From positions 27,891,430 to 27,955,429 of the forward strand of contig CM057129.1 of assembly GCA_029964075.1 (NCBI GenBank): a DNA stretch of 64,000 bases, read 5' to 3'. A program made the position numbers and the translations under genes. Below the pieces are notes generated by a model. That model did no database searches. It saw only the letters and a list, made by a program, of their open reading frames with translations, and was not told the DNA's origin. Shown here piece by piece: positions 14,678 through 48,080 of this stretch. Position 1 is the stretch's first letter. Each line of letters starts with the position of its first letter. This stretch comes from Patiria pectinifera. Its lineage: Eukaryota; Echinodermata; Asteroidea; Valvatida; Asterinidae.

Positions 14678-15705
14678 ATTAAACAATTTTTGGGTACACA
14701 TGTACGTTATACTGAAATACCATCACATTATAATAAACATATTAAAATCAATATTATGTTTTGCCCTTCACCGACGTATAAACACTGCGTTACCTCTCGA
14801 GTGAAAGTTGGAGAAAAAAAAACAACTCGACTGGGACTAGAACCCACGACCTCCTGCTTTCTAGTACAGATATCTTACCACTCGACCACCGAGCTAACGG
14901 GATTGGTTGGCTGGGTTATGAATAGTTAATGCGGTACCCGCTGCTATGTACATCAGATTCGATTACACACTTCGATTACATGCAGTGTTTATACGTCGGT
15001 GAAGGGCAAAACCCTAATTTTGATTTACATCAACCCGACGCAAAAATTCAATCTTATGAAACATATTTAATTTGAAATAAGTTCTGTTTAAGTTTTGTTT
15101 ATCCCGTTTTGTCATGGTAATGAAAGTCTAGGGATTATTTAGTTTTGTATAGAAATGCTACGATTTAATACTTATAGCTAATTTATCTTAATTTCCAATC
15201 ATTTTTACGCTTAAGTGCCAGAGCAGTTTCTATGCATTAATCTATCATCATATTAATTGTTTTGTTGTACTACGGGTGTTCATTACTGTACAAGGGCTTT
15301 CACTGACATCATAAATATAGTTTGAACACATCAATGTTTTAACTGTTTATAAAAAGGATAAAATACAAATGTATAGACTTGGACACGTTTTATGCACTTT
15401 TTAAATATCGATGACACGTGGACATACAGAGTATTAATTAGTTGCTAATTTGTGGTTGGCGTGTCAGTGGACTTTGTGTTTAACATTTTGTTTGTTTCAG
15501 CTTTTGTCTTTTTAAAATTGATTAAAACCTTTGTAGCTTTTACACAACAGAAATTAAAGGGAAATCGTAATTAAGATCCGACCTTAACTTACTCAGACCG
15601 TTTAATTTAATGTCACCTTAGATTAAATGCACTCGTTTAAAGTTTTTCGAGCAAAATTAGAATTAAGTGACAGGTATATTAATAAATACATAAAATAGAT
15701 TTTCA
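14678..15705 (+). other. Copy A 3' untranslated / downstream region
   Basis: Stretches after the stop resemble the region after copy B (for example around CAGTTTCTATGCATTAATCTA), consistent with a shared 3'UTR. A candidate AATAAA lies at 15681-15686; an earlier AATAAAC occurs near 14732. The transposon-like element at 14758-15012 interrupts it in A only. Confidence 0.5.
14758..15012. mobile_element. 255-bp element with perfect 31-bp inverted ends and an internal tRNA-like segment
   Basis: Left end 14758-14788 and right end 14982-15012 are exact inverted copies (GTTTTGCCCTTCACCGACG...). On the minus strand the interior has a tRNA-like promoter pair: an A-box-like GGTGGTCGAGTGG (14878-14890) and a B-box-like GGGTTCTAGTCCC (14833-14845). 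This combines MITE ends with a SINE-like core. It is missing after the copy B stop codon. Confidence 0.8.
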
Positions 15706-19639: not shown

Positions 19640-20035
19640 CTTTTGCAATCGGTGATGCATATTCACGATCGGTGATGGACTTTCGCGATCGGTGATTGAC
19701 TTTTACTGGTGATGCATATCCACGATCGGTGATGGACTTTCGCAATCGGTGATGGACTTTTACTGGTGATGCATATTCACGAGCGGTGATGGACTTACGC
19801 GATCGGTGATGGACTTTTACTGGTGATGCATTTTCACGATCGGTTGTGGACTTTTACTGGTGATGCATATTCACGATCGGTGATGGACTTTCGCGATCGG
19901 TGATGGACTTTTAATGGTGATGCATATTCACGATCGGTGATGGACTTTCGCGACCGGTGATCAACTTTGCAATCGGTGATGGACTTTTGCAATCGGTGAT
20001 GGACTTTTGCGACCGATGATCAACGACCCATCACC
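19640..20035 (-). repeat. Left-end array of GATCGGTGATGGACTTTCGC repeats
   Basis: Alternating GATCGGTGATGGACTTTCGC and ACTGGTGATGCATATTCAC blocks form a degenerate 57-bp period. This is the inverted counterpart of the arrays at 22085-22665 and 26230-26690 and acts as an extended subterminal repeat of the transposon. Confidence 0.85.
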
Positions 20036-22084: not shown

Positions 22085-22681
22085 AACACACAGATGCGAC
22101 GGTCGCGAAAGTCTATCACCGATTCGGGGATCACATTAAATGCCTCTTTGGCGTTCCTGTTTCGCCAAAAGCGGCATTTAATCGGTGATGGACTTTGGCG
22201 ATCGGTGATGGTCTTTCGCGATCGGTGATCAAAGCTGCGATGACGCAAAAGTCCATCGCCACTCGTGAATATGCATCACCAGTAAAAGACCATCACCGAT
22301 TGCGAAAGTCCATCACCGATCGTGCATATGCATCACCAGTAAAAGTCCATCACCGATTGCGAAAGTCCATCACCGATCGTGCATATGCATCACCAGTAAA
22401 AGTCCATCACCGATTGCGAAAGTCCATCACCGATCGTGAATATGCATCACCAGTAAAAGTCGATCACCGATCGCGAAAGTCCATCACCGATCGTGAATAT
22501 GCATCACCAGTAAAAGTCGATCACCGATTGCGAAAGTCCATCACCGATCGTGAATATGCATCACCAGTAAAAGTCCATCACCGATCGCGAAAGTCCATCA
22601 CCGATCGTGAATATGCATCACCGATTGCAAAAGTGTATCACTGATTCGATGATCACATTAAATGCCTCTTTGGCGTTCCAT
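22085..22681 (+). repeat. Internal 57-bp array ending in a terminal sequence
   Basis: Units of 57 bp (AAAGTCCATCACCGATCG, then TGAATATGCATCACCAGT) run to a copy of the transposon terminus GGCGTTCCATA at 22671-22681. Because 57 is a multiple of three, a frame with a 19-residue period stays open across it; it is a repeat artefact. Confidence 0.85.
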
Positions 22682-23328
22682 AACAGCGGCATACGCTAAC
22701 AACAAACATTTTACGCACATTAATTTAAAAAAATGCAGTTCACATATGAGAAAGACACTTTCAAACACAAAAACACCGTAAACAAATATCACCGTCAGGG
22801 GCAACACGAGAGACCCTAAGCCACAGCGGTATGCACGTTCAATAACTGATGCACTTTGGCGAACGGTGATGGATTTTGCAATCGGTGATGGGTCGTTGAT
22901 CATCGGTCGCAAAAGTCCATCACCGATTGCAAAAGTCCATCACCGATTGCAAAGTTGATCACCGGTCGCGAAAGTCCATCACCGATCGTGAATATGCATC
23001 ACCATTAAAAGTCCATCACCGATCGCGAAAGTCCATCACCGATCGTGAATATGCATCACCAGTAAAAGTCCACAACCGATCGTGAAAATGCATCACCAGT
23101 AAAAGTCCATCACCGATCGCGTAAGTCCATCACCGCTCGTGAATATGCATCACCAGTAAAAGTCCATCACCGATTGCGAAAGTCCATCACCGATCGTGGA
23201 TATGCATCACCAGTAAAAGTCAATCACCGATCGCGAAAGTCCATCACCGATCGTGAATATGCATCACCGATTGCAAAAGTGTATCACCGATTCGATGATC
23301 ACATTAAATGCCTCTTTGGCGTTCCATA
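22682..23328 (-). repeat. Inverted copy of the transposon left block
   Basis: This stretch is the reverse complement of 19591-20237, including the array and the adjoining unique part, so the same small frame appears on the plus strand near 20007 and on the minus strand near 22912. It ends with the terminal sequence at 23318-23328. Confidence 0.85.
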
Positions 23329-26229: not shown

Positions 26230-26690
26230 ACGCAACACACAGATGCGACGGTCGCGAAAGTCTATCACCGATTCGGGGATCACATTAAATGCCTCTTTGG
26301 CGTTCCTGTTTCGCCAAAAGCGACATTTAATCGGCGATTGCGAAAGTCCATCACCGATCGTGCATATGCATCACCAGTAAAAGTCCATCACCGATTGCGA
26401 AAGTCCATCACCGATCGTGCATATGCATCACCAGTAAAAGTCCATCACCGATTGCGAAAGTCCATCACCGATCGTGAATATGCATCACCAGTAAAAGTCG
26501 ATCACCGATCGCGAAAGTCCATCACCGATCGTGAATATGCATCACCAGTAAAAGTCGATCACCGATTGCGAAAGTCCATCACCGATCGTGAATATGCATC
26601 ACCAGTAAAAGTCCATCACCGATCGCGAAAGTCCATCACCGATCGTGAATATGCATCACCGATTGCAAAAGTGTATCACTGATTCGATGA
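26230..26690 (+). repeat. Right-end 57-bp array
   Basis: This is a near-identical but shorter copy of the 22085-22665 array, leading into the right terminus of the composite transposon. It lacks roughly two units at its left compared with the internal array. Confidence 0.85.
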
Positions 26691-28897: not shown

Positions 28898-31800
28898 ATG
28901 CCGAGCACCAAGGAAGTGGCGGAGCTGATCAAGAAGGATCCCACGGCCGTGGATGCTTACATGCCGCTGGTTCTTCAAGCGATACGAGACGACAAGGACC
29001 ACGCCAATTGGTGTGATGATCTGAAATTGGCTATTTCTAGACAAGTTTTCGAGGAGGTCAAATCCCAGTAAGTAGTTTGATCAATAATTTCAAGGCTAGC
29101 ATTGAATTGTGGGGAAGTGTGGCCTAGTGGATAGGGTATTGGACCCATGATGAGGAGGTCATGGGTTCGAATCCAGTTACTGGCCTGTTGTGTCCTTGGG
29201 CAAGACACTTTGCCCCCACTTGCCCCACTCCACCCAGGACAACAAAAAAGATACAACAAATAAATAAATAAAAACCGGCATTAGCTGTAACCTGCAATGG
29301 ATTGGCATCACATCTAGGGGGAATAGAAATATTCTCTGTCATTTCATGCCTAGGAAACCGGAGATAAACGCCAGCCTGATGGGCCACATTGGCTCATGAC
29401 AGACTTTACTTGCATTGAACTATATAATGACTGGGCGATATGTTGTGACACATACCAGTAAAGAGGGCGACAACTAACAAAATGGATCCGCTCGCTCATC
29501 TCGAAAAGTTCATCTGATCAATTTCTGTAAACTACAAACCTTGATATCATCTCATGACGGGCAGCTGTTTTTCCCTTTTACATCCTGTCTTAGGAGTAAT
29601 AGACATGAGCAACACATGCTGGAGCTGTGCGAGGTGTGTCTGGAGAAACGATCGGCTACTAAGTGGTACTACCTCGCGGTAGACATGTTCGAAGAGAAAC
29701 GGATCATTAACTGGAAGGTACTTTTATTAACAAAACCATACAATAATGAGTTACTTGCCCGAGTTAGGGGTCACTTGCATTTACTCGATGACAAACCTAC
29801 CTAATTATTTAAGAAAAAAAATATTTTGCTACTACAAAAATCCTGAATATTCATTTTTTGTTTTAGAAGATAGGATATTGTAGCTCTATATAGATGAAAA
29901 TTGACCTCTATTATGACTTCTAGTGCAATCTACTGTACACTGTGAAATAAAAGAGTTCCAATGTAAAAAGGTAAATGACACCATATGGAAAAATAACCCA
30001 CATTTTTGCCTATTTAAGGAACAGCAATATAATAAACTTGAAGTAGATTATTATTGCAAAATAACATGTCAAAATTTTGGCTTAGGATATACTTTTTGAG
30101 AAAACTGTGAAAATGCATCTGTATTTTTCTCGACACAATTAAAGCAAGGCCTCCTTTCCAAAATGTTCATTAAAAAAGTCTTGACTTGCGCCCTCTTGTG
30201 GTGTGACCCCCGGTTGTCGCTATCGAAAACAATTCTCTAGTCTGGTTCCCAGACCTGACAATTATTCCCGACGCTCACGTCTTAAATTGTAGGTCAGGCA
30301 GCCTAGTCCGTGGCTAAAAATAAACATGACGACATTAATGGCCCTCTTCCAAAGCGCGGCTTCGTTTCCGATTTCGCTTTATCACTTGTAGCTTTTGATG
30401 TTCTGATCAAATCTTTAAATAAATCACTTGCTTCGTAATATCATACAGTTATGATAATACAGTTTAATGTTTTTGTAAGATAACATTGAGTAATGTTGAT
30501 CTGAAATCTTCAAAATTACGGAACCAAATAGCACTGTTAGCAGGCGGAGCCGAATGAAGACCGAGTTTTGGAAAATCTTGGTAATGGTAGTCAAATTCAA
30601 AATTGTACATGACGCAGCAAAAAGTTCGCCCGTACGATCCGAGTATATTTGATGCACAAAATCGTCGTTCAATTTCAAGTTTTCTAAATAAAAAAAATGA
30701 ATATTAATTATCAACTCATTTAAAATAAAATTAATAAGCAATTACCAGATAATTAAACCTATATTATATACTCGGAAATACTCGGGCGCTATCCGATTGT
30801 CGACGAAACGACTTCGGCAAACTTCGGAAATTTTCGGAAAAAGGAGGAATTCATCCCGTTTTAGTCACGTGACGTAAATTGTAATACTTTATTTTACCGA
30901 AGGCTACCGGACCTAAAATTCACCAGGAATAGTCGGAATAAAAAAAATCTTATGCATTTAGCTGAAAAAACCTTGAAAATTATGTTTAAATTATTATCTT
31001 TTGTGCTAAGATAACTATTGGTTAAAGTGGTAAGAATTTGCCTCAGATCACACCACGGAGCATCGAGAATCCATTTTTTTTCGGGGCCCTTAAGCGGATG
31101 ATTTGTCCTTGGGATGAAATAGCTTACCCTTAGAAGTAAGCTAGATCATCCCAAGGACAAATCGCCCATAGAAGAGAGAACAGGTGTTATCTACAAGATA
31201 GCTTGCACTGATTGTGACAGTTCCTACGTTGGAGAAACAGGGAGAACATTAACCCTAAAGGGGCCGGGTTATTTTGACCTTCTCTCAGCCGGGGGGGGGG
31301 GGCGGATTCCCCCCCCCCCCCCCCCCAAAATCTCGGCCATCGAGTGACAAAAAATTTCGGAAAATGTTGAGTGACAAAAAATCACGGAAAATGTTAAGGG
31401 GGGGGCGGATTCCGCCCCCGGCCCCTTTAGGGTTAAAGGAGAGATTGAAAGAACACAAACGAGCTCATGCAGACTGAACAATCCATCTCTTTCTTCAGCA
31501 GTTGCAGAACACGCCCTTAATACTGAACACAACATTGGATGGGACAATGCCCACATTATCGACTTTGAAACACATATCTGGCCAAGAAAGGTGAAAGAAC
31601 CATCTGGATCAAAAGGATTAATCCCTCACTGAATAGGGACTCTGGTTACTCATTATCACCGACATGTATCTACGCTCCAGTGATCTCGAGACAACAGACA
31701 GCAAGAAACTGAGTGCACAATCACTTGGCTTGAGAAAGTCCACAGAAGTGGATGAAAGCTTGCCAACTAATTTTTAGGTTGGCAGAAGCTTGAAGCCCGA

Positions 31801-34800
31801 GTCCATCATTTGCAGCTATCCAAAAAAAATAACTGGCGTAATTATTGTTGAAAAAACATACTGGTTGAAAGATAGTAAGGGGACTAAACTCCCTGTGAAA
31901 TTATCCTTTCTGGCAAGCTCTCATTTTGAAGAAATCAACGAAAGAAGGCATTTCCAACGGTTCTTCTTAAGAAGCACCGTAGGAAAATTTAAATTAGTTG
32001 TTCGTTTCGTTATTCGGCGCAGCGCGCACAAGCACTGGAACGACGCACAGGCGCGCGCGGTCGCTATAGTTCGTCGGATCAGTGCGCGACATCGCGTAAA
32101 GCTGCAATTCGAAACATGATTTAGCAACTTTTGATTTTAAATTGAGATCCTAGAATGTTGTTTTTCTCGGAATATGAAGCTGAAGCTGAGCTGAAACTTC
32201 ATCAAGTATCAAATTAACAGCAATATGGCTTCGCACCTCTTTTCCCTTTTTTGTGGGGGGGGGGTGCCCCCTTTCCCCCTCCCCCCCCCCCGCGACGCCC
32301 ATAATCTCATGAATAGATAAAATTATTGCACATTTGCCTCTATTTACAAACTTTTCATAAATGTACAGGGTCAGTAAAAAAAACCGGAACCTAAACCCCC
32401 CAAAATATATTTCATATTTAAAAATAATGAAGCACCAAAAATAATTATGAGTGGAAAGCCGATTTCATAAGCTACTTCTAGATGAAAAAATACTGAAATT
32501 GCTCAATCCGTTCAAGGAAAATCGTCATTTTAACGCAATGACCCGAAAACTTGTTTTGTCCAAAAATCACCAGTCGCGAGTCAATGATGGTAATTCCTCT
32601 TTTCTTGCAAATCACAGCATAAAAAAGGTGCATGGATGTAAACGAATGCCCGATTCTATTATTTGCTTACAATCAATTGGGATATTTGATATATTATATA
32701 TATTACATTTTGGCAGTTTTGTTTTCGAATGTTTGCCAATGTTTTTCATTACCTTTAAAGAGACACGCTATGATGACAATAATACATGTCAAGTGGTGCA
32801 GTGCTGGTGGTGACAGAATTATACAAGTGGCAAAATAATGATCTTTAATCCGTAAACTGGCTCGACAGCATTACAAATCTATTTACCCACAGTCAGTACA
32901 CACCTCATTACAACCATGAAATTACCATCTATTACAATAAGGAAAAATAGTCAAAGTTTTAATTAATTATAATTATCCAATGCATAGTGCATCATAACTC
33001 CTGTGTAGGTGATATTTGGCCTAACTAAACATTTTACATATCTGAAAGGGAACGAAATTGTATGACAGCTGATTTGTTCTTTTATGTGGTCAGAATATAG
33101 TCTTAAAAAAAAAGTATTTTAGGGTGGCAGTGTTTTCTTATTTAAAAGGCCACGTAAAAAAAAACATCATATGAAAAGTATGGTGCAATCATTGAACCTA
33201 TGTATAATGACTCCTCTACAGTATAGTTGAATTAAAGAAATCATACTTGAAGTAATACAATTCCTAAACCGTCTTTATATTGTTTGAAGGATATTTTTAC
33301 GCAGACACGACGCTCCTGTTATAGTAACCAAGGTGCTTACGTGCCTTCAATGAAAAGTTACGTACAGTAGCCTTTTGATATCAGCAACTTATCATGTGTC
33401 CTCTACAGCCATCAGTTTGCCAGTGCGCGCTATACTTTCATTTATAACAATATTTCTTATGATTCAGCAACATGTCGCCTTGGCTGAAAAGTTGATCAAA
33501 ACATTCGAGGTGCCAGTGGCGCTAGTGAGATCCAAGGATGAAGTTTCTGGGCTCAGCAAGGGCTGCCGACCGAGAGAAACGGGGATGGGCGTGGCAGTGA
33601 CGAGATGCATCCATGCCATGATGGCAGGATTAGAGTAAGTGAAGAGTAACAAATTAAGTTAAACGCCAACCAAAATTTAAAATGTAAAACAGCTGTTGGT
33701 GTGGTAGGCCTAATCCGTACTGTTTGTACGGCAATCGATTTTGATTTTATACTTTTTGTGCTCTTTATCAAATTAAACATACTTTCTCCTAACGACATTT
33801 CGACCATTAAATGTCATATTTTGACGTCTGTCACCATCTGACAGCTTTATCTAATACACAAACAGATTCGCCTTGCAGTTAGACTGGTTCCCGATCCCTA
33901 CATTGACGATTGCAGTAGGGGCGGGACTCAGTATACCCTGCGACAATGGAGTTATCGTTGGGTAGAAAGTGATTCGAGATTTGTGGAATGGTTCCACATC
34001 TTATAGTTGATGTGGGTCCATTTTTGTGGTCGATATCTCAAACAACAATCGAAAATGTTTGCAATGCTAAAAACGACCAATAAAAAAATAATAAATCCGA
34101 TTTCTCTAATTTATATGAGGGTATAACAAAATAACAGCGGGAGAACATATGAAATCAATTGATTGAATTGATGGTGATTTTGTTTTTCGTTGCAAAAAAA
34201 ATAAAATTATATCGATAGTAGGCTATAGGGCAATCTATAAGGAATTTTCCACCAGCGCAGTTTCGATATGTGTAGATTAAAGGGGTTGCTTCGCAAACGG
34301 TTAATTGTTTTTTTCATTCTCGAATTGGTTTCTTTACAGCCGAGACAAAATCTTGAAGAAAGTGAGCAAGTGTATGGTAGAGGTTCTGGTGAAACTCTGC
34401 AAGATGCCGAATGAACTTCAGATTATTGCAGGGCACGCCTTCTGTACAAGTTCCAGGCACCCACTCAGCTGGGACGTAAGAGCAGATTTCTTGGGTTTTT
34501 TTCAATTGGCAAACCATATTGCCTACTTCTTTTATTACATCACTTTCTTTAATAATAATAATAATAATAATACGTGTATTATAATAATACATTGCATTGA
34601 GCAGCCACTGCCAGAAACACCGGGGCAAATGGTTCTTTAACATGCTTTACACAACACACGGGACCTACAGCTTTACGGCCCATCCGAAGGAGAAGCAATA
34701 ATGGTAAAGTGCCTTGCTCAAGTCTAGCACAAGTACCATGTTCCCACAGTCAGGATTCGAACCCATGTACTTAAGCCACCCGTGACGTCACTCCTGTCGC

Positions 34801-37800
34801 TGCTGACGGGCAAAAAAGCAAAACCCCACAACTTTCCATGTTTTTCCGTTGACTTTAGATACTAAGGCCAAAAAATGTCTCCGATTTCTGGTGTGGGGTT
34901 TGCCCCAAAAGTGGTCCGGCGACGCGGGTTTTTTGTTCTTACTTTTTTCCTTCAAATTTTGCCTGATGACTGCAAATTAATGATGCCCGACTAAATTAAG
35001 TACAAAATGTATGGGCGCCCAGAGAGGTCGTATAAAGCTTATACTCGAACGTAACCCCATCCAAAACACTTTAAAATTGTGCAACAGCAGGATTCCAGTC
35101 AAACCGGTGAGTTTTGCGGTTTGGAGACATCATCTTACATTGAAAAAAAAAAACTTTTTAGTTTTGCCGACGCGCACGGCTACGGCGACGCGCGCGCAGA
35201 CCAGAAACCGGAACCTTTTGGGGGGGAGGGGGCCTTATGCAGAACACCGCATTCATAAAACCTCAAACTAGCCATTTTTAAGTCAGTGAATCTGGCAAAG
35301 CACCGGATGGTATTATATGGAGGACTCAATGCACAGCTACGCGCTCAACAATGTGTCAAAAACACAGTAGCTTAATGGGTTTCATCGTCTGGAGAGCTGG
35401 GGAGGGGAGTGACTCCCCCTCCCCCCTTGAATCCGCGCCTAGGTTGTGTACGCGTATAAATATTGTTTTCCGGTGCCGGAACTCATGCTTGCATGAGTTT
35501 CCACAGTTACGGTGAGGAAATGTATCAATACAATACAATAGCTAACATAATAGCTAACAAAATATCTCGATTTTTTTTTTTACAAATGCTCCGTTCTTAT
35601 TCGGTAGATTATCAGTTTTATGACGTCATGTTTAACGGTCCGTAGCACGCACAATGATCGAAGCACGTGTAAAATAGGGCCAGGACTCAACGTGCATGTA
35701 CATTCGAGGATTTAATGAGGAAAGTTTTGTCGCATTTTTGAGAGTCCATAGAAGGTCATTGATTCGTTTCCCACATTAGGATCACCTGTTTTTGCTTGAC
35801 CAACCTGCTGTCTGTCATCTGAAACTGACTGACTATCTGACTGAATCACTGGGCGTTAATTATGTCCTTAACTTAGACTTTTGAGACTGTACCAAGCCTA
35901 GTCATGTCAGAAACAGACTTCATTTTGCCACCGTGGCACCTACACCTGGATAGGCTATAGGTAGCACGTTCTGAAATGAGGCAAGAACATATTTAAGATG
36001 TCTTTTCTTTTCAGGGGACCGAGAATATGCTGCCGGAACTGTACACCAATCTGTACGAATGGATGACGTCAGGCAACGTGGATCTCAAGTTTGATAATGA
36101 TGATAAGACTCGATTCATCGATAGAATGATATCATCATCTCTCGAGGGAGCTAGGTATTACATTTGTCTGAGATCATTTCATCATTTCATGTATCTAATG
36201 GCAAAAACCCTATATTGTTGTTTTGCGTAGCTTCAAACAAACGAAATTTCAATAACTACAATCGTCAACATTTGCATAAACAGGACTAAACATGTTTAAT
36301 ATTGTAACGTAAATAATCGAGATTTGCTGCTGCGGTGCAAGCGCGAGCAGGCGCCAGCAAACAATCACTGTCTAACTATTGAGGGCGCTAGAGCGCTACT
36401 GCGCAAGTTGCACACATGCAGCGCGCTATGGGCAGTGTGAGTTCAGACATCGTCGGGAACGGACGTGTGGAGTGCTGAGCTCAGGTATTGGAGGCTACAG
36501 TGTGCGCTACCTCGATTCGAGCGTGGGCCACTGTAAGGAATACTTGAGTAGGACTGCGGTGGGGTGCCGATAAGGAAACTAGGGATTAGTTTCTGGTCCG
36601 TGTACTCGGGGAAGGGAGTTAACTTACCTTTGGAAACCAAGGGCGAGGCACTCATATATAGCCTCCAGAGGCTACAACGGGAGGATCCAAACTAGTAGGA
36701 GGCGCGTCATCAATCGCTGGGAGGCGGCACAGCTGGTGCTAGGCGGATCAGAGGCGCTTATTCATTTATTTATTAGCTTATAACTGGGAGGTTCAAGCAG
36801 CAGCAATGATCGTGCGATGATACTTAAAGGTCACATCATCATTATTGTGTTGTCCCATTCACTCTTGCCCTGTGTCCTGTCGGTCCCCGAGGAGGTTTAC
36901 TGAAGGTCCAGTCATTATAGCCCTGTGCATTAGGCAGTACATATCCGCCCAACGGGCCTACTGCACCGGTCTTGGGTCTCTTGAAGGAGGTACCACACCT
37001 GCCGGGTGACCGCCGGGGGGGGGGGAGAAATCGTCCGGGGGAATTTGGTAAATCCGCTACAATATCATGACTCCGTACTCGGTTACTGCTCACTGGTAAA
37101 ATTGTATTTTACTCAAGAAGTTTTAGGATAGATATTTTGTCTTTGAATTTATATTACTCGACAAAACATCACTCTTTACACTTCTCACTTATTAATATCC
37201 GCAGGTCACCATCAAAATATGCAAAGGAAATCTATAAGATTCACCAGTATGTACTGACACAAGAATTAGACGGCGATCCATACTCAGGATACGGGTTGTT
37301 AGCGATAACTATTAACTCCAGATTTGTAGAAAAGGTAAATTTGACCATCGCCTTTCCTCTTTGAGTTTACAATTACTAATTATTCCTCATGTTGAAAACA
37401 TATCAACTTACACAATCGAACCTGATTCGTTTTACCATTCTTTGTAAAGATGAAAAAAATATAGAAACAATTTATAACTGCTGAAATGTACAATGAAGGC
37501 AATGTTCGAGCTGCATCATCAACAATATCCATTCTGATCCCACCGCTGACACCAACCAACAAGTTTCCGTTGTTAGTCATTTGCCTACAATTCAGAGCAA
37601 CGAATTTATATACCTCAAACTCGATGAACAGAATTATGGCAACCAGCGACTTGTCAGAGACTTCGTGCCTGGAGTGGTCAAGATGTTCAAACACGACAAC
37701 GAGCAGCTGATGAAAACCGCTTCATACTGCATCGCAAAACTCGACAAGCACGGTGACCTGCTGGCCCCGTACGCAGATGACATCATGGACGTTTTCCTTG

Positions 37801-40800
37801 ACGGGGAAAATGACACGTTGGGCCGTAAGTTGTGTTTTATTTCTCTTCGACAGTATTGTTGTCAAGTCCATCACAAATCCTATCACAAGTCCATTCACAA
37901 GTCCGGTCGCAAGGAAGAAATTATGAAAAATAACAAAGGAATGTGGGGGTTTTTTGGTCACAGTTTATTTCAATAGGTAACTACTTAAAACTTTTGTCTG
38001 GATGACTTTGTGACTCCTTGTGATGGACTTAGCGAGGTCTTGTGATGATTTGTGATGGACTTGACTACCACTCTTCCTTATGAAATGTTGCACTCGTCAA
38101 ATTAATGGTATAATACAAATTTTAGTGGCCACCATGGTGGTCAAACTTTACTGTATTCGTATCCAGCGTGTCTGCGGTCCTTGTATGAAGTTAGCCCGGA
38201 GAAAATACTGAGCAGATTGGATCAGCTTGTTGAGGCAATGGAAGACATGAATCAAAACAGCAAGATCTATATCTACATGCTGTGGAACGATGTAGCCAAA
38301 AATAACGCAAAGGTACATAGAATGCTATAAAGGATAAACCATTATAGAGTGATGTAAGACGAGATAATAACGCTGAAAGTTTTCACAAATTAAATATTTA
38401 CATCTAGGGCAACTTTACATAAACAAGGAGTTCCGTAGTCTTTTGGAGATGTGTGTTAACTTTCCATGCATTTATAGGAAGCGGACTAGTTAGGTCTAAT
38501 CGGTAATTCAAATTATTTGATGAAAGATTATTATTAAAAAAATATATTTGATGCACATTCAGATAACCTAACTTGCAACTTATAATACAACACACTACAG
38601 AGAAATTCGAAGTATATGTTCATTATATATTAAGGATTCCCTTTTAGAGTAGTACACAAAATCATCAGGATTTGAAAAAAAGTTGAATTGATTAAAGAGT
38701 GTATTCGTGCACAAGACACATTCACACAATGAAGTTTCGACATTTACTCCAAAGTTTTAGAAATCTAACTGCAGGAACTGTATTGTCACCAAATCGTTTT
38801 CACATTTTCTGCTCAGTTTCTCGTGCCTCACTTGGACCTGATGATGGATGACGTCACAAATGTTGAACTGTACAACTTAGTGCTCTTGGTCCTGGGAACC
38901 ATGTCGGCCAAGTTCCCGGATCAGTTTGTCGACAAGATGGACAAGCTGCTAAGTGTCGTCAAGCAGACACCGCACACCATCCAAACGTTGGTGCAGGTTG
39001 TGGCGAGTGTTGGTCAGATAAACGAGGTGAGACATGTTGTCATTAATAAATACCCAAGACAGTTAACCCCTTCCTATTGGTCGAGAGCCCGTTGCGTGGC
39101 CGGCTTTAAACGGTTGATGAAGACCGGCTGCTGGTCTGAAACACTTTTCCAGTGTCACATGAAATTTTGACTCCTTTGAACGTTTACAATGCACAAGTAG
39201 GCATGCTAAATACTACCAATGAGTCGGTTTTTCATATTACTACACCTCATAAATATTCATGATCAAATCGGAGAGCGTCATTGGCCGCTTCCGCCGCGTG
39301 TCCGGGAAGTGAACATGATACGCGCCAAGCTGACGTCATCGCGGTGAGTATCCAGCTCGCTGCCGTGCGGTAGTTTTTTTCTGGTAGTACCAAAAATTCC
39401 CTCTGGAACCTGCCTCATAGAATATGTAGTCTGTGCCATGAAATCTTTACGGAACCAGTCTATTGTTGTAGTCCTTGTAACTACTGCAGTAAAAACACAT
39501 TAAAGAGTGTTGGCACCAGACTATTCCATTGAATGACGAAGAAATTGAATATCTTGTACTGAAAAAGATGCAAAATCTACGAAGGTCAACTAAAAAGGCA
39601 GTGAAGCTACTAAATATTGATGAGGTGTAGTAAAACAAATACAGCATGGTTTATTTCTGGAAAATAGTTTGAATTACTGGTCCCTCGGTCTAGGTCAGCT
39701 TCTTCCTCCCGACGCGAATAGTCCAGCTGACCTACACCTCGGGACCACAACTTCCCTCAAACCATGCTGTATTTGTATAGTCCTAAATTCTCACTACACC
39801 GGCACAGCTGCGTTCTGCGCGACTTCGTGCATTATGCGCGACGCCAACCTTCACTGAGTTGTACGACACGGGCACTACAAAAGGAAAGCTACAGGGTTGT
39901 TTCAGAAAACATGAAGTAAAATTATTGAGAAAAAAATCGTTGGAATTTTATAATTTTTTACTTGTTTTTTTCTTTTGGACAAAAAAGTTTAGTTTTTTTT
40001 GGGCGAGAAGGTATTTATGAATGGGAATAAATACGTGCTTGGCCGGTATAAAATAACATGTTTAAGACCGTTTAGAATCTGTTTAAAGAACACCAAATTA
40101 AACTGTATACAGATAACAAAACAATGTGGTTTTTTTTCAGCAAAAGTCAATAGATGCATGGATAACTAGTTGCAAAGAGATGTGAAGGAGACATAGTTTG
40201 CTTGATAAAACGTACACAAACTAAACGAGGTGTTCCTACAAGTCAAAAATCAATCACAGTTTCATCCAGTGTAGTGGTGTGCATCGGGTCGGGTTAAACC
40301 GAATCCGAACCGAAACAGATTTGAAATCCCCAATTCCGACCCGACCCGACAAGACCCAACAACAATTTAAGGAAAATCGACTCGAAACAGAACCGACCGG
40401 AAAAACCCTAGGTCAACTGTGTCCGCTTTTTGTGCCTAAACTTACCCGCGTCGCGTAAAAATCGTCGTCTCTCAGCAACTGAATCATACTAGTACCGTAC
40501 GGCACTCACCACGTGACCTAGTGTGGGCCTACATTATTACAACCGTGCGTGATAGACCGCAAACCATTTTGGTCGTACCAGGCACAGTGACTCTGCAATA
40601 AATATTGCACTGTGTGAATTTCCAAACTGTTTTTATTTGTTTTCGGTTTATTTTTGTTTTCCCAAAATGTCTTAACCTACCCGATCCGACCCGAAAATCG
40701 CAAACGCAAAACCGAAACCGGCCCGACCCGACTGAAATGATGGACAAACGACCCGACCCAACCCGAAGTTGGTTGCGGGTCGGGTTTACACCAAACTAAT

Positions 40801-43800
40801 CAAGTAGAGTGACAAGTATGTCAAATGGCACATGTATCACAATGCCATTATTCATACCCTTCTATTTATGGTCAGGGCCCAATTTCATAGCGCTGCTTAA
40901 CAGCGGACTTTGTGCTTAACGAGCCTCCATTTATTTTATAGGGACCGTTAAGCAGTAAGCACAGCAAAAGCACACTTAACCCAAGAAGAAAACTTTGCTT
41001 AAATCAGTGACGTAACAATAGAACACAACCGTTAGCACGTTCACGGCATAAAATAGGGCTTAAGCAGCAGCATGATTTTCTGCTATAGTAAGCACAACTT
41101 TTCTGCTTACTGTTAAAGCAGTGCTATGAAATTGGGCCCAGCTGTTGTAATCGGATAAGTGATTGGCTTGTGGTTTGCCTCGTGATAACTCTCATCACAC
41201 TCTAAAAAGTACTTGGGTCAAATTTGACCCGAATTCCTGGTCATAATTGACCAGATACTTTTCTGAGTCAAAATGACAATTTTGCCAAAGTTTCCAGGTC
41301 AAATTGAGAACTGTCTTTTTTGACCTGGAAAAATGTTATTTTGACCCGATGAATTGGTGTCCTTAATGCAGAAACAAGCCGAACGTTGCATGCAAATACT
41401 GATCGACATACTGAAGACCATCGAGGACATGTTTGTCGGTTTCATGTTGATGGAGATAAAGCGGATCGGTTGCAAGCACGTGGAGGTGTTGAAGAAGTAC
41501 CGGGCCGACATCGAGCCGTTCATGAAGAGCCAGGTCATAGCTGCACCCGATCTGGCGCAGAGTTTGATTGATCTCATGGAGGGACGCAGGTGAGATTATT
41601 GGGGATACCGAGGAGGGATGCCATCGAGGATTAAAGAGGTGTGATAGAAAACAAAAAAAAATAGCTTGAAATCGAGTTCCTAACGATAATATCGTACTGT
41701 AAAGTGATAAGTTTGCGGGTTCACCTACAAATTAATCTCTTCTGTGAAGATGTGTGCAATCGGACTTCTTCACATAAGAACCACTCTTCTTGACAGAATA
41801 AATTAATTCCAGGAGAAGAAATTACTTCTAATCTTACTACTCCCTATCATCCCACCATGCACAGCTTCATGCCGCATGTTGCAATTTCCACCTCCACACA
41901 TTGAACAACTGCTTTGCATGATTTTGAGATTTGTAAATTAGGAGCTCCACCATGCAATTAGACCAAGATAGACATGTCCAACGTAGTCCCAGGTACTGAC
42001 AATCAAAATCTCCAAAGACAAAAAAGGGAGGGGGGTTGGCACATACAATCTCCAGCAAATTTGGCTGTAAGGCAGAACATATGAAAAGTAGCGCATTTGC
42101 CACCCAGCCCTGGGAATCCGTTCTATTTATCCAATATTATCACTCCCTTTACAATGAAAGAGAAAAAAACAATAGAAGAGATAAAGCGATGAATTCCAAT
42201 GAAGGCTGATAGCCTTATATCGTACTCAATTTACGCAAGACGGCTTTCAACTGCCAATGTCTAGTGCAATTTGAATCGTTTGTTGGTTCTTAAAAGTTAT
42301 TTGTAATGCTTCATCCTGTTTCTTAGTTACGTCCAAGGTTCCACTGAACAAAGTGAAATCTAGACTTCTCCCAATTTCCTCAGCTTGGAAGTTCTCGCGG
42401 GTGACGTGGAAGACGTGAAGGAGGACGTCCAGAACCTCGACGACCGAGTGACTGAAACGGAGGAGAATGTCGACCGGCTCGACAAGACGGTGACTAAGCA
42501 GGGCCAGGAGATCGACAATGTCAAGAATGAGGTGACGGAGCAGGGACAACGACTGGGCGACCTGGAGGAGGTGGTTGATGATACCATCGTGAGGGTGGAC
42601 GAAATAGACCGCAAAGTAAGTACAAAAAGATGGTATAATATGAATAGAAATAAGTTTACTCGCAAGGATAGATTGTATAAAGCTTGTTGGGACAATGGCT
42701 ACCCATACAACAAAGTTATGATTCCCGTTCATTGTTACGAATTTTCCGACTCCAATTCTTCATATACAACGAGAGGTCAAAATCAAGTTGTCAAGAACAG
42801 AATCTACAATGTGTGGTGAACTTTAAATACTATACACCATGCGTTGCCTTGACAGTAAAAATAACATTACGACCTTGATATAACATGCTCTAACTCCAAC
42901 TTCAGCTTTAAAGGGGGATCTAATTAAAATGTCAGAAAGAACAAGTTGGCTTTTTTTTTAAGGGGAAGAGGCAGGTGGGTTGGGGCGGGTTTAAAATAAC
43001 TGTGTGGTTATCTGCTATTGGTGCTATGTGAAGAGAACATAAATTGTGTTTAAGTCTAATTGGGCATTTGCATGAGAAAGACAAACATCTCGGTGGACTT
43101 CCAAATATTAAAAAAGAGCCCTGGCCAGATGTCTCCTTATAAAATCAAGCTGGCAAGCAACAAGTAAATGAGACATAGGATTGGAACATGCGATTGGAAG
43201 TACCTTTAATTGCATAAGACACCCAAATTCGAGTTCAATGATGATCATGATCAAGCCACATGCATGACGAAGCCACCAATGTCTGCGGTTAATACTAACT
43301 CACAGTGGATAATATATTCAATATTAATGACAATAAAGTTAGTTTGATATTGGATATTGGAAATTCACATTCGTTAGTACAGGGAATGTCCATGTTGCTG
43401 TTTGGATATTGGACATTGGAAATGCGCATTGGCTTGCACAATGAATGTCCATATTTTATTCAATATCCAAATAAAATATGGACATTCATTGGGCAAGCCA
43501 ATGCGCATATCCAATGTCCAATATCCAAACAGCAACATGGACATTCCCTGTGCTAACGAATGTCCAATATCCAATATAAAACTAACTTTATTGTCATTCA
43601 ATATGAGGGCTATAGGTCTCGCACGGTACTGAGTAGCCTATACAATGCATATGAAATGACGTCGTTGAAAAGCCTAAACCCAACATTCAAATCAAACACC
43701 TTTACATTCTCAATCTGCCAGACCATTACCAATGCTCCAAAGTGGTCTCGGGACATCGCCAATCTCCTGAACCCCGAGCACGAGCACGACTGGCGTTTCC

Positions 43801-46800
43801 TGGCCATTCGCCTGGGCTTCACCGGCGAGGATGTCCGTAACTGGGCCCTGTCTCCGGACCCTACCATGGCCATCCTGGCCGAATGGTACACTATTCATAA
43901 GAGTAGTGAGGCGACTTTTGCCATCTTGACGGCGCTGCAGGACATGGGGAGAGACGATGCTGCGACCATCGTGGAGGAAGCGCTACAAGCCGCTGGTACG
44001 TTTACTTTCAGTTTTCAAACGCCTGATATATCAACAACGACTTGGAAACATTAAAAAAAACACCAAAACGATAGCTAGATTTGCCTCTGTGTGGATCACA
44101 GTTTTATGTTCCCGGGACGTTAATTGCGCAAGCCATGTAGGACTGCACACGGCATTGCCATTAACTTGATTATTGCCGGTGATATGTATTGTACCTTTGA
44201 TGTGAATTATGCAATAAGCATCAAAATATACACAGTTCATTTGATTAGCTTGTGACTTGACTTATGACTGGATGACTAGTCATTGATTTGCGATGACTTG
44301 GGATGACTTGTGATGACTTAATGATCACTGGCTAACGGGGGTCCAACTTACGGAGGCACGTAATAGGGGCATCATTTTCTGGAGGGGGCACTCAGTGAAA
44401 TTTGTAACAAAATCAGCAACTCATTTTGCCTTCTCTAAATTCTCAGCGGGGGCAGGACGTAAGGGGGCACAGACCCTGGGGGGGGGGGGCACATGGGCAC
44501 ATGCCCCCATGCCCTGTAAATTTTACGCCACTGTTCGTGATGACTTGTGAAGAATTGTGATTGACAAATGATGACTGGTTGATATCTGTCATACCACGTC
44601 TGTAGATAAAGTGGTTCCTAAGGCTGCCCCAGACATTTCTGAGAAGCCTCCGCGTGTCTTCATCAGCTACCAGTGGGACCATCAGCCCGAGGTCAAGGTC
44701 ATCAAGGAGCATCTGGAGAAGGCAGGCTTCAACTGTTGGCTAGACATTGGTCAGATGGGAGGCGGGGACAGCCTGTTCGCCAAGATCAACGAGGGGATGA
44801 GGGCGGCCAAGGTGGTGCTGTGCATGTGCACCGAGAAGTACTCCAAGTCTGAGAACTGCAACAAGGAGGTAGGTCCTCACATGCGAGAAAATAATCACAT
44901 ATACATGAGATTTGAAAGGACCTCACCGTCGAGGGGAGTCATCGTTACATTTTCTTGGATGGGAAACAGCCATCCTGATTTTCTCATTCACTTCCAGAAA
45001 GTTGGTGGAAAGATCGCACCGTTTGCTTAAGTTTGCATAAACAACACACAGAAGAACTCAATGAAAGGCCGTGAATTTTTCTTGAGATGCTTTTTCCAAC
45101 CTAAACGCCTCTGAATGAAAATGTATAATTTTCCATAATCAGGTGAATTTGGCCAACCTGTTGAACAAGCCCATCATACCCGTACTGATCGAGAAGATAG
45201 ACTGGCCTCCATCTGGCTCCATGAGCATGCTGTTCGCCCAGCTGCTGTACATTCAGTTCTTCACTGACAAGGAGTACGTGAGAGGGGAGAAGTTCTGGGA
45301 GGATGCCAAGTTTGCTGAGTTGCTGGGCCAGATCAGTTATCACGTGGCCCCCGACGAGGAAATGATTACTGATGGTAAGTTTATGATGCTCATTCGATGT
45401 TAGTAAAATTGTTTCTTCAATGCGACATAGAAGGACATTTCTTAGTATCGCTTTAAAATCATGGAATGTAAACGATAAACAAAACCTGTAGGCCTCTTTA
45501 CAGAACTCAGTGTCAATCACTACATCATGGTTAATAATCATCATGGGCGTCGTCAGGATTTTTTCTAGGGGGGAAACCTATTTCCCCCCCCCAAAAAAAT
45601 AACCGTATTTCTCATCATATCCTCGATTTATCATCAACTTTAGAGGGAGCAGGGACATACTGACCCCCAACCCATGAAATTTACACCAATATGGATTCGC
45701 ATCTCTTTTTTTTTTTTTTTTTTTTTTCTTTTTTCCCCTCCTTTTTTTTTTTGGCTTTTCCCGGGGGGGGGGGGGGAGCGCCCCCTTGCCCCTCCCCCTT
45801 GCGACCCCCATGATAAAGCATGTACTTCGTGTAAACAGAGTTGTATTATTGTTCAGTTGTTTGAGGAAATGAATACGTGAGCAAATTATTGAATCGAAAA
45901 CTTAAACAGGGAATCAAGTGTGCAGAATGTCTTCGCACGAAAGCCGTACGATTTCAAAACAAACTCATATTAACGACAGTGCCGTACTTCGCGAGTTATT
46001 CTAGACTAATTGCAGGACTGCTCGTTGATAGGTTATTGTTATCCGGTTATCCGGATCACTGACGATATTCCTTAGGATAGGTTTGTTTTTGAGAAGTGTC
46101 AAGTTTTCGAAACTTTGATAATTACGCATGTTCTGTTAATCACAACATGTTCTTTTGTCATTTCAGAATATCGTAATTGGGTCCCACAGATTGATGATCT
46201 GCCGAAAGTTGTCAAGAAAGCGAACGAGAAGAAGTCCACAGACGACAACACAAAGTCTGAAAAGCCAACAGATCAGGTACAGATGCATTATTTCTCTGTT
46301 TGATACAACATACCAAAATTATTATTTGAGGAATTGGCGGCAAAATGAAATCTTAATGTGCTGACGGCAAAGTTCGCCATATTAAAATGTAACACAATGC
46401 TATAGAAGACCAGAAACTAACTTCAAACATATGGATTACCATGCATGCTGTAAAACGATGTTATCATTTCTCAGGATTTTGTATCTGAAACAAGTTTGAA
46501 ATCCTCTCTTGATGGCAGTGTTTAGTCGAGTCAATCACAAGTTATCACAAGTCCATTACCAGACTTAAGTCAAGTCGCAAACTTTTCAAATGAACTGCAA
46601 CACTAGTATTCTTCCGTGAATGTTCATCCCCTGTAACTTGTGACTGGACTTATGAAAGGACTTGTGATTTGTTACCGGACTTTGACCGGATGGATTCGTC
46701 ATGAACTCGACTGTAGCACTGCTTATCGCTGCAGTTCATGGAACATTCTTTAAACTCTTTTTTCTGTGTCTGATCAGGCCCAACAGATCATTCCCCAAGT

Positions 46801-48080
46801 GTTCATCTCGTACCAATGGGACAAGCAGACGGAGATCAAGACACTGTACTCCAGACTGACTTCGCTCGGGTTCAGTTGCTGGCTGGACATCATGCAAATG
46901 GGAGGCGGTGACCCGCTCTACTCCAAGATTGATAAAGGCATTAGAAATGCCAAGGTGAGCGACTTGCAAGACTCATGGAAATGGTCATCCTTGTAGGTTT
47001 GGCGCTACAACGCATCAGATAACTTATCTGACAGGTTTTTAATTTAATATACTGTGATTTGTTTCTATGAAATACAAACAAAACTATAAAAGGGTCAAAT
47101 AGAATTGTAATTTTCGTTCCAATAATTGGATGTATAGGTTAGACAGGAATATTCATGAAGTGTTTACCAAAAGGGAGGACAAAATCTTTCTGATAAAAAT
47201 AGAATGCTTCTCTAAATTTGCAATTTGTTTCTTGTCGAAGGTTGTGGTCTCCATTGTGACCCCCAAGTACGCCTTGTCTGCCAACTGCCGTCGCGAGGTG
47301 AGCCTTACAGATGCTCTCCGTAAACCCACCATCCCGCTCCTCATGCAGCAGATGACGTGGCCCCCGGAGGGACCCATGAGCATGCCCTTTGCCCAGCTCC
47401 TCTACATCGACTGTACCGGTGAGTCCACCCAGAAAGAGTTCAGGGATGCCAAATTTGACGAGCTGGTGCAGAAGATTAAAGAGCACGCAACTGTCGAGGA
47501 TGCGGTAGTCCAAAGTGCGCCACGTAGCGACACTGAGAAACCTGAGATAGATGAGGCGAAACAAGTAGAAGAGACGAGTCCCAGTCCGCCAGCTGCTGAA
47601 AATATCAAAACACCGGAAGCAGAGGAGAAAGAGGATCCTGCTCAACAGAACCAACCGCCAAAAGAAAATGCCAAAGCAGATCAAAAGCTGCAACCAATCA
47701 GCACTGAGGACCGAGCAAAGTTGTCAGGGTCCACGGTACCTCAACAGACCCAACCACCAAAAGAAGATGCTGAAGAAGATCAAAAGCTGGAACCAATGAG
47801 CACCCAGGACCCAGCAAAGTCTGCAGGGTCCACGGTACCTCAACAAACCCAACCACCAAAAGAAGATGCCAAAGAAAAAAAGAAGCTGGAATCAATGAGC
47901 ACGGAGGACCCAGCAAAGTTTTCAGGGTCCACGGTACCAGAAGCGAGGCCTCAGTCACAGATAGGGCCTAAGCATGTCGAGGTTATCCAGCCGGAACGGA
48001 GTGCCTCTGCCCCGAAGGAAAGAGCAAGACCTGATTCGCCAAAGAAGAAAAAGAAATCATCCGTGTGTGCAATAATTTAA
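28898..48080 (+). CDS. Copy B: complete VEPH1-like / coiled-coil / Death / TIR / TIR / CaaX protein (1265 aa)
   Basis: Seventeen coding exons: 28898-29067, 29594-29717, 33468-33634, 34340-34475, 36015-36154, 37205-37334, 37596-37824, 38167-38312, 38817-39026, 41372-41589, 42384-42615, 43722-43995, 44606-44868, 45143-45374, 46167-46276, 46778-46954, 47241-48080. All junctions have AG/GT, all phases agree and the sum is 3798 nt. Residues 1 to about 556 resemble the N-terminal helical repeats of VEPH1/Melted (for example [15 protein letters not shown], then [15 protein letters not shown] and MEIKRI). Then come a coiled coil (557-634), Death domain (about 640-725), TIR1 (about 742-890), TIR2 (about 933-1065), three 33-residue repeats (1122-1220) and a CaaX end, CAII. 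VEPH1/Melted proteins are membrane-associated signalling scaffolds ending in a PH domain; that domain is absent here. A membrane-tethered receptor-proximal or NAD-cleaving immune protein is inferred. The start is the first ATG of a frame joined in phase to the second exon. Confidence 0.88.
29109..29400 (+). mobile_element. tRNA-derived SINE in intron 1 of gene B
   Basis: TGGCCTAGTGG (29120-29130, A box) and GGTTCGAATCC (29164-29174, B box) are spaced as in a tRNA. They are followed by a SINE-type body (CTTGGGCAAGACACTTTGCC) and a short AAATAAATAAATAAA stretch. It is a SINE and not a tRNA gene, since the tRNA fold does not close. Confidence 0.75.
31018..31096. repeat. Repeat fragment shared with copy A intron
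   Basis: GGTTAAAGTGG, GCCTCAGATC, ACCAC and TTCGGGGCCCTTAAGCGG match 5278-5375 closely. It is a fragment of the same repeat family and abuts the Penelope-like remnant. Confidence 0.6.
31100..31163. repeat. Hairpin at the edge of the Penelope-like remnant
   Basis: GATTTGTCCTTGGGATGA and its inverted copy TCATCCCAAGGACAAATC bracket TAGCTTA...TAAGCTA, making a nearly continuous stem with a loop of about 10 bases. Confidence 0.75.
31157..31780 (+). pseudogene. Penelope-like retroelement remnant: GIY-YIG endonuclease end
   Basis: The translated pieces [11 protein letters not shown] and [11 protein letters not shown] are the hallmark GIY-YIG block, and [12 protein letters not shown] follows once the insertion at 31253-31432 is left out. 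Downstream reads include [13 protein letters not shown]. Premature stops show it is dead. It lies in intron 2 of gene B, on the same strand. Confidence 0.8.
31253..31432. mobile_element. 180-bp TTAA-flanked MITE inside the GIY-YIG remnant
   Basis: CCCTAAAGGGGCCGGG at the left and its inverted copy CCGGCCCCTTTAGGG at the right are flanked by TTAA on both sides (31249-31252 and 31433-31436). TTAA duplications are typical of piggyBac- and Kolobok-type transposons. Leaving the element out makes the GIY-YIG frame continuous, which proves insertion. Confidence 0.85.
32215..32306. repeat. Fragment of the GGGCGTCGC repeat family
   Basis: GGCTTCGCACCTCTTTTCC, G and C runs and a GCGACGCCCAT end resemble the right part of the element at 1931-2409. 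Only a partial copy is present. Confidence 0.4.
34552..34790. repeat. AAT microsatellite and dispersed repeat
   Basis: An AAT run (34550-34572) is followed by a stretch with GGGACCTACAGCTTTACGGCCCATCC, AGTGCCTTGCTCAAG and a tRNA-type GGATTCGAACCC. This has the look of a dispersed SINE-like family inserted in an intron of gene B. Confidence 0.5.
39085..39165 (+). mobile_element. Second hammerhead-like Penelope fragment
   Basis: TTGATGA, then AGACC / GGTCT able to pair around GGCTGCT, then GAAAC, mirror the hammerhead arrangement except that the first core C is T. The sequence lies in the intron after the exon ending at 39026. Confidence 0.35.
39237..39633. mobile_element. MITE with TTACTACACCTCAT ends
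   Basis: TTACTACACCTCATAAATATT at 39237 is matched by the inverted AATATTGATGAGGTGTAGTAA ending at 39633. No frame was recognised. A second palindrome follows immediately. Confidence 0.65.
39636..39777. repeat. Palindromic element ACAAATACAGCATGGTTT
   Basis: ACAAATACAGCATGGTTT at the left and its inverted copy at the right enclose a second inverted pair (GTCCCTCGG, AGGTCAGC / GCTGACCT, CGGGAC). It could be a solo hairpin element or part of a larger nested insertion with 39237-39633. Confidence 0.6.
40273..40794. mobile_element. Element with TGGTGTGCATCGGGTCGGG-type ends
   Basis: The left end TGGTGTGCATCGGGTCGGG and the right end CGGGTCGGGTTTACACCA are imperfect inverted copies. The interior holds many CCCGACCCGA words near both ends. 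No coding capacity is seen. Confidence 0.55.
40875..41139. mobile_element. 265-bp MITE with GGGCCCAATTTCATAG ends
   Basis: GGGCCCAATTTCATAGCGCTGC and the inverted GCAGTGCTATGAAATTGGGCCC form the ends. The interior repeats TGCTTAA and AAGCA words. Elements with these ends are familiar from marine deuterostome genomes, which supports the organism guess. Confidence 0.8.
42384..42615 (+). other. Copy B exon encoding the coiled coil
   Basis: This has the same length and heptad-like pattern as 7762-7993, with few residue changes (VLAGDVED versus ALADDVED at the start). It covers residues 557-634 of the B protein. Confidence 0.8.
43325..43598. mobile_element. 274-bp near-perfect hairpin element, absent from copy A
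   Basis: AATGACAATAAAGTTAGTTT at the left and its inverted copy at the right extend into arms of about 135 bp meeting near 43460. CAATAT flanks both sides (43319-43324 and 43599-43604). Copy A has uninterrupted sequence here (CAATATTGGGGCTA at 10492-10505), so the element entered B after the duplication. Confidence 0.88.
43722..43995 (+). other. Copy B Death-domain exon
   Basis: The Death domain is at residues about 640-725, with one amino-acid difference from A. The exon follows the hairpin element by about 120 bp. Confidence 0.88.
44606..45374 (+). other. Copy B first TIR domain (two exons)
   Basis: Exons 44606-44868 and 45143-45374 encode [26 protein letters not shown] and NCNKE; the last Glu (residue 813) is the final codon of the first exon. 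No amino-acid difference from copy A was seen, although several silent changes exist. Confidence 0.9.
45544..45812. mobile_element. MITE-like element with CATGGGCGTCGTC end
   Basis: CATGGGCGTCGTCAGG at the left, long T, G and C runs, and GCGACCCCCATGA at the right place it in the 1931-2409 family. The A copy lacks it at the matching place (after 12265). Confidence 0.5.
46778..47488 (+). other. Copy B second TIR domain (two exons)
   Basis: [26 protein letters not shown] and SANCRREV are all present; the Glu is near residue 1005. The domain differs from A at a handful of residues (for example T for I in KPTIPLLM, and Q for R shortly after). Confidence 0.9.
47646..47942 (+). repeat. Three in-frame 99-bp repeats in the copy B tail
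   Basis: These are counterparts of 14243-14539 with the same unit length and number. The third unit has become more basic ([12 protein letters not shown]). The flanking final exon is exactly 840 bp in both copies. Confidence 0.9.
48045..48080 (+). other. Copy B polybasic CaaX end (CAII)
   Basis: The protein ends [12 protein letters not shown] and then TAA. The CaaX pattern is kept even though three of the last five residues differ from A, which argues for selection on the motif. Confidence 0.75.

Follow-up and report, generated by a model that had tools for sequence, protein, structure and literature searches.

The question raised by this locus of Patiria pectinifera is whether one gene joins a VEPH1-like N-terminal half to Death and TIR domains, and what the ancestry of that half may be. 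The window, that is, the whole stretch of DNA analysed, comprises 64,000 nucleotides of contig CM057129.1 (C1 below). The gene was rebuilt from the sequence as 17 phase-consistent exons on the + strand, from an ATG at 28898 to a TAA at 48080, with GT-AG borders in all introns (Table 1); the ends and the exon number are those proposed in an earlier, sequence-only reading. The succession of helical N-terminus, coiled coil, Death, TIR and TIR within one gene was likewise confirmed, with exons that recur in the same order in neighboring copies. The draft exons 7 and 8 (37596-37816 and 38126-38312), which belonged to a model of 1276 aa, were rejected because they alone called for a weak donor, gttggg, and strong sites keep the frame in six of six copies. 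A strong donor (gtaagt, or gtgagt in copy C) lies 8 bases beyond the draft donor of exon 7, and the downstream acceptor of exon 8 (..atc[ct]ag) preserves the frame in all six modelled copies; the exon 7 acceptor placed 36 bases further in is also common to the six. After this correction from the tandem copies, the protein has 1253 aa.

Table 1. Exons of the gene and related coding features of the window (positions in the window).
Feature	Position	Strand	Content
Exon 1, start codon	28898-29067	+	Helical-looking, no family match, aa 1-57
Exon 2	29594-29717	+	No family match
Exon 3	33468-33634	+	No family match
Exon 4	34340-34475	+	No family match, to aa 199
Exon 5	36015-36154	+	VEPH1-like region starts; pairs with VEPH1 exon 1, less firmly, by global alignment and intron
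Exon 6	37205-37334	+	VEPH1-like; aligns with VEPH1 exon 2
Exon 7 (corrected)	37632-37824	+	VEPH1-like; aligns with VEPH1 exon 3
Exon 8 (corrected)	38167-38312	+	VEPH1-like; aligns with VEPH1 exon 4
Exon 9	38817-39026	+	VEPH1-like; aligns with VEPH1 exon 5
Exon 10	41372-41589	+	VEPH1-like; aligns with VEPH1 exon 6; VEPH1 homology ends here
Exon 11	42384-42615	+	Coiled coil; many weak coiled-coil-type Pfam matches
Exon 12	43722-43995	+	Death domain, Pfam PF00531
Exon 13	44606-44868	+	TIR1 first part, including NCNKE (glutamate aligned with SARM1 HKE)
Exon 14	45143-45374	+	TIR1 second part
Exon 15	46167-46276	+	Linker
Exon 16	46778-46954	+	TIR2 first part
Exon 17	47241-48080	+	TIR2 second part (NCRRE), 33-aa tail repeats, polybasic and CaaX ending, stop
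99-bp (33-aa) tail repeat, 3 copies	47641-47938	+	Within exon 17
Tail repeat sites	47641-47938; 14240-14535
Copy E, next array copy upstream, complete, exons 4-17	814-14677 (C1:27892243-27906106)	+	Ends in CTIL

The domain content was evaluated with a Pfam scan of the uncorrected 1276-aa model, in which TIR_2 was found twice (E 1.6e-47) and Death once (E 1.1e-10), together with weak coiled-coil-type matches at about residues 564-657. The 22 families reported at E<=1 for the whole of this protein included neither PH nor SAM. The sole Pfam match of the N-terminus was Adaptin_N, below threshold (E 0.0018), and its best match in the PDB was coatomer (E 0.039). Exons 1-4 (residues 1-199), compared with Pfam and the PDB by sequence profile, gave chance-level matches only. 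The nearest PDB sequences of the Death exon were p75NTR and NRADD. The fold predicted for this exon alone was poor (pLDDT 60.5, single-sequence input); its best matches were death domains, but none of the 109 reached E 0.001 (best 0.089).

The ancestry of the N-terminal half was studied with a profile made from residues 1-552 of six array copies. Against human VEPH1 (residues 1-369, a query sequence not taken from a database record), this profile scored 58.0 bits, the best of 1000 shuffles being 3.7. The genome's own VEPH1 was located with the same query sequence on contig C6, where five colinear exons (13994556-14000823) were found with identities of 68, 51, 48, 38 and 27%; its PH exons lie at 14009765-14011918, and a VEPH1 PH-region query gave two matches in the genome at E<=1, both on C6. 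The use of this genomic VEPH1 freed the test of descent from that human query sequence, and the profile scored 82.2 bits against its exons 1-6 (E 1.6e-24 with 1002 sequences searched; the highest-scoring of 1000 shuffles reached 4.3). The local hhalign match pairs VEPH1 67-369 with exons 6-10 of the window gene over 299 columns, and exon 5 is linked to VEPH1 by the global alignment and its intron, outside that match. Identity of the window gene to the genome's own VEPH1 was 80 of 339 residues; for comparison, the latter shares 168 of 368 with the human VEPH1 query sequence. The introns agree as well: in a MAFFT alignment, window introns 5/6 to 10/11 have phases 2, 0, 1, 0, 0 and 2, exactly as in VEPH1, with offsets of 3, 1, 7, 0, 0 and about 1 column. 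All six therefore fall within 7 columns of a VEPH1 intron of the same phase, and four within 1, with the sixth VEPH1 intron set manually to the last position of exon 6 because its split codon was untranslated; when this intron was set aside, the counts were five of five and three of five, respectively. Random placement of six introns in 200,000 draws never gave six within 7 columns or four within 1, and gave three within 1 column in 0.0035% of the draws.

These sequence comparisons show that exons 5-10 and the N-terminal ARM region of VEPH1/Melted have a common origin, and the presumed ARM nature of the N-terminal region rests on this homology. The earlier claim that residues 1-556 are VEPH1-like stands, by profile and introns, for about residues 200-545 (exons 5-10, firmly 6-10), but not for residues 1-199, for which profile searches of Pfam and the PDB gave no relative; similarly, the profile comparison with VEPH1/Melted that had been put forward as its check was positive, with a match covering exons 6-10 and not the full 1-556. 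The window gene and VEPH1/Melted thus have in common a homologous N-terminal ARM-like region, in which window exons 5-10 align with VEPH1 exons 1-6 and the introns match. They differ in that the former has no C-terminal PH domain in the Pfam scan of the whole protein, carries 199 additional residues in front, and continues behind into a coiled coil, Death and twin TIRs. Exons 5-10 are now joined on the 5' side to the four exons with no family match, and on the 3' side to coiled-coil, Death and TIR-TIR exons. Since the resemblance to VEPH1 ends with exon 10, at the 10/11 intron, the joint with the coiled-coil, Death and TIR exons would fall in an intron, a manner of joining that resembles exon shuffling.

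Such a joint could also be produced by a gene model that merges two adjoining genes, one VEPH1-like and one encoding Death-TIR-TIR, and introns 10 (794 bp) and 9 (2.3 kb) leave room for a hidden boundary. The tandem copies of the gene speak against this. With the N-terminal query, nine exon-1 matches were found on C1 (27788720-28104826), all on the + strand and to be taken as a lower bound. The Death exons on C1 are also nine in number (99-100% identity), as are the first-half exons of TIR1 and of TIR2, so the array holds nine or more tandem copies. Of the six for which models were built, five (A, B, D, E and the window copy) are complete, and copy C is broken in exon 17. The exon order was the same in six of the six copies compared, and this recurring order of exon matches is independent support for the gene beyond chance. 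In five of the six modelled copies, the 17 exons form one open frame with a single stop at the end; since the models were restricted to AG-GT exons in the reference phase, the agreement in phase between copies is partly built in and is no independent test. Additionally, a clam unigene with an ARM-like region, Death and two TIRs has been reported (in a passage of PMC6836662). A merger of two genes is accordingly regarded as very improbable.

Several features of individual copies were observed within the array. The exons 1-3 of copy E sit immediately before the window. The frame break of copy C lies in its TIR2 exon (C1:27855832-27856694) and represents either a decayed copy or an assembly error. 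In one array copy, exons 5-8 occur twice, about 5.85 kb apart (C1:28073295-28083985), as an internal or an assembly duplication. Between two array copies, satellite arrays of a 57-bp unit were found in both orientations (19627-20020, 22248-23291 and 26335-26660); these leave long open frames that are not gene-like.

The rate of change along the gene was compared between the window copy and the other four fully modelled copies, A, B, D and E, over the protein as far as residue 1060 apart from the linker (exon 15). Copy C, whose exon 17 has no model, and the incompletely retrieved copies F, G and H did not enter this comparison; exons 7-11 of copy H were used in a separate one. The VEPH1-like exons 5-10 had dN of 0.133-0.160, dS of 0.125-0.151 and ratios of 0.94-1.26; dN/dS was 0.67-0.75 in exons 1-4 and 0.19-0.74 in the coiled coil. 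The Death domain showed a dN of 0-0.005 (0-1 nonsynonymous vs 0-6 synonymous changes) and TIR1 a dN of 0-0.003 with dS of 0.070-0.103 (0-1 vs 7-10), so that Death and TIR1, at a dN/dS of 0-0.15, stand beside a VEPH1-like region at about 0.9-1.3; the values for TIR2 were 0.08-0.15. Fisher tests of the VEPH1-like region against the summed Death, TIR1 and TIR2 counts gave p values of 5e-8, 6e-10, 7e-10 and 4e-8 in the four comparisons, which are not independent because all share the window copy sequence. In the A-B pair, dN was 0.032 and dS 0.096 over exons 7-10; the arm is more constrained among copies A-E, and the fast change therefore falls between two groups of copies. Between these two main groups, the VEPH1-like region has evidently changed fast and the Death and TIR domains have been nearly constant. 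When aligned pieces longer than 150 columns were compared, introns included, DNA identity was 81-94% in the 3' half and 70-88% across most of the 5' half, so gene conversion or a mosaic or younger duplication partly explains the uniform output half.

Significant positive selection on the VEPH1-like arm was considered and rejected, as the bootstrap gave no support for dN>dS: exons 5-10 were not significantly above a dN/dS of 1 (P(dN<=dS) 0.15-0.62). This is what would be expected if the VEPH1-like half simply drifts under relaxed constraint, with no selection for diversity, and the broken exon 17 of copy C points the same way. Nevertheless, exons 1-10 are open with splice sites preserved in six of the six modelled copies. 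The comparison of the window copy with copy H (98-99% alike in exons 7-10) also argues, weakly, against drift, with seven nonsynonymous and no synonymous changes in those exons (chance of 0/7, 0.18). Relaxed constraint is considered plausible, at somewhat less than an even chance.

The relation of the gene to known systems was assessed by its domain order. SARM1 carries two SAM domains between ARM and TIR. The window gene shares with SARM1 the helical repeats, an oligomerisation part and a TIR with the catalytic glutamate aligned (in TIR1 by alignment, in TIR2 by motif only), but the Pfam scan of its protein found no SAM between ARM and TIR, and it has Death, a coiled coil, two TIRs and a VEPH1-type ARM; the SARM1-like layout may be read as an analogy. 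MyD88 consists of Death followed by a single TIR, with no long helical front. The pairing of Death and TIR is shared with the window gene, which differs in its twin TIRs, its VEPH1-like front of 545 residues and its CaaX tail. In Aplysia, MyD88-like genes that also carry an Armadillo-type fold have been reported (PMC9334734). The closest published system is ecTIR-DC family 6, a family set that goes back to Gerdol et al. 2017 as described in a passage of PMC6836662, where a clam member is presented and the family is otherwise reported only in invertebrates. Like the members of that family, the window gene is from an invertebrate and has a long N-terminal ARM-like region, a central Death domain and two TIRs, in the same order. 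The earlier statement that no described system has this order was therefore mistaken. The same passage of PMC6836662 makes no mention of VEPH1 descent, a CaaX ending or a tandem array, all three of which are found here. Among the matches listed in a literature search, no paper paired 'TIR domain' with VEPH1, and the search turned up no account of a descent from VEPH1, of an array with nine or more copies, of the CaaX ending, or of a fast arm beside a fixed Death/TIR output; the domain order is known, and the VEPH1 descent and the fast-changing front half look new.

The activity of the twin TIRs was approached through their nearest solved relatives. For TIR1 these were bacterial TIR proteins, Cat1, SARM1 and AbTIR (E 1.6e-4 to 4.6e-4), and the alignment with SARM1 (E 0.0003 over 98 residues) places the NKE glutamate on SARM1 HKE with the WP motif in register. 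For TIR2 they were bacterial TIRs (E 3.9e-5 to 9.5e-5), in alignments printed only to a point before the glutamate, which was identified by the motif NCRRE only; the match to SARM1 was weak (E 0.024). Both glutamates are kept in all five complete modelled copies. These properties would suit a SARM1-like NADase, in which the helical N-terminus keeps the twin TIRs inactive and assembly leads to NAD+ cleavage and cell death. The missing SAM, the weak TIR2 match and the VEPH1-type ARM region argue otherwise, as does a survey (PMC7075850) in which the glutamate occurs in over 70% of TIRs and need not track reported activity, many glutamate-bearing TIRs having none reported. This enzyme reading is rather unlikely, and since the glutamate is common in TIRs with no known activity, NAD cleavage by the window protein is graded as possible.

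In a different reading, the TIRs are enzymatically inactive and the protein is a pure adaptor, a long MyD88-like bridge between TLR/IL-1R-type TIRs and Death-domain proteins. The pairing of Death with TIR as in MyD88 favors this, as do the speculation of the Loripes authors that the ecTIR-DC family 6 gene transduces TLR signals (passage of PMC6836662) and the position of SARM1, in that 2020 survey, as the only metazoan TIR protein with known NADase activity (PMC7075850). On the other hand, TIR1 is nearest to bacterial TIRs, Cat1 and SARM1, MyD88 appears among the PDB relatives only via the Death domain and above E 0.1, and the glutamate kept in both TIRs is rare in MyD88 according to the same survey (PMC7075850). 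An adaptor of this kind is a credible candidate, held with less than even confidence.

The C-terminal tail bears on the location of the protein. The ending KKKSS-[VM]-C-[AT]-I-[LI], of CaaX type, was found in nine of nine copies, and these recently related copies are the only setting in which the CaaX was seen. Five lysines are present in eight of the nine, with KNKKK in copy C. This polybasic and CaaX ending is a putative prenylation signal of the array proteins. The number of 33-aa tail repeats varies by copy, the open frames of the last exon being 254, 287 and 386 aa in three copies.

On this evidence, the window gene is probably a member of the ecTIR-DC family 6 type with a VEPH1-derived ARM region, a CaaX ending, an array setting, and a variable arm combined with a conserved Death-TIR output. 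Its product would most likely serve as a lipid-anchored scaffold of cytosolic immunity, in which the variable arm senses or regulates and the Death/TIR output is conserved. It would be prenylated at the CaaX and placed on the cytosolic membrane face, where the helical N-terminus may sense or restrain; upon activation, the coiled coil and Death domain would assemble and bring the twin TIRs together, and the paired TIRs could signal by recruiting other Death/TIR proteins and perhaps by cleaving NAD+. If the CaaX is used, the link to the membrane would have passed from the lost PH domain to a lipid anchor. This scaffold reading points to a line of descent for an orphan immune family of invertebrates, the ecTIR-DC 6 type, whose ARM part, here at least, would come from the VEPH1/Melted scaffold; the array would then derive from a gene that a passage of a 2019 review (PMC6734325) describes as having no paralogue in any species. 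As fast and fixed parts are separate in at least nine natural copies, a sensing half and a signalling half can be tested against each other directly. A bolder proposal, that VEPH1/Melted gave rise to an invertebrate family of lipid-anchored intracellular immune receptors, in which the VEPH1-derived ARM solenoid diversifies between tandem copies for recognition and execution falls to the conserved Death/twin-TIR part, through NAD+ cleavage or assembly, is speculative and improbable; if true, it would mean that a developmental scaffold became a sensor and that animals possess an equivalent, in layout, of the TIR receptor arrays of plants.

Other features were noted in the window and the genome. 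A tRNA-like sequence at 14822-14896 on the - strand matched the Rfam tRNA family (34 bits), with no clear anticodon in ARAGORN, and a stretch at about 29105-29180 in intron 1 resembles it and looks, by eye, like a SINE. Two further runs of TIR-domain matches lie on C10 (2290279-2369973 and 10900165-11190793), one of them with open frames of 805-989 aa. Downstream of the window gene, a different possible coding exon (..VKMANVFGSPPESGPKPVSSSMRLNPLYDQNG..) was observed at 61501-62046.
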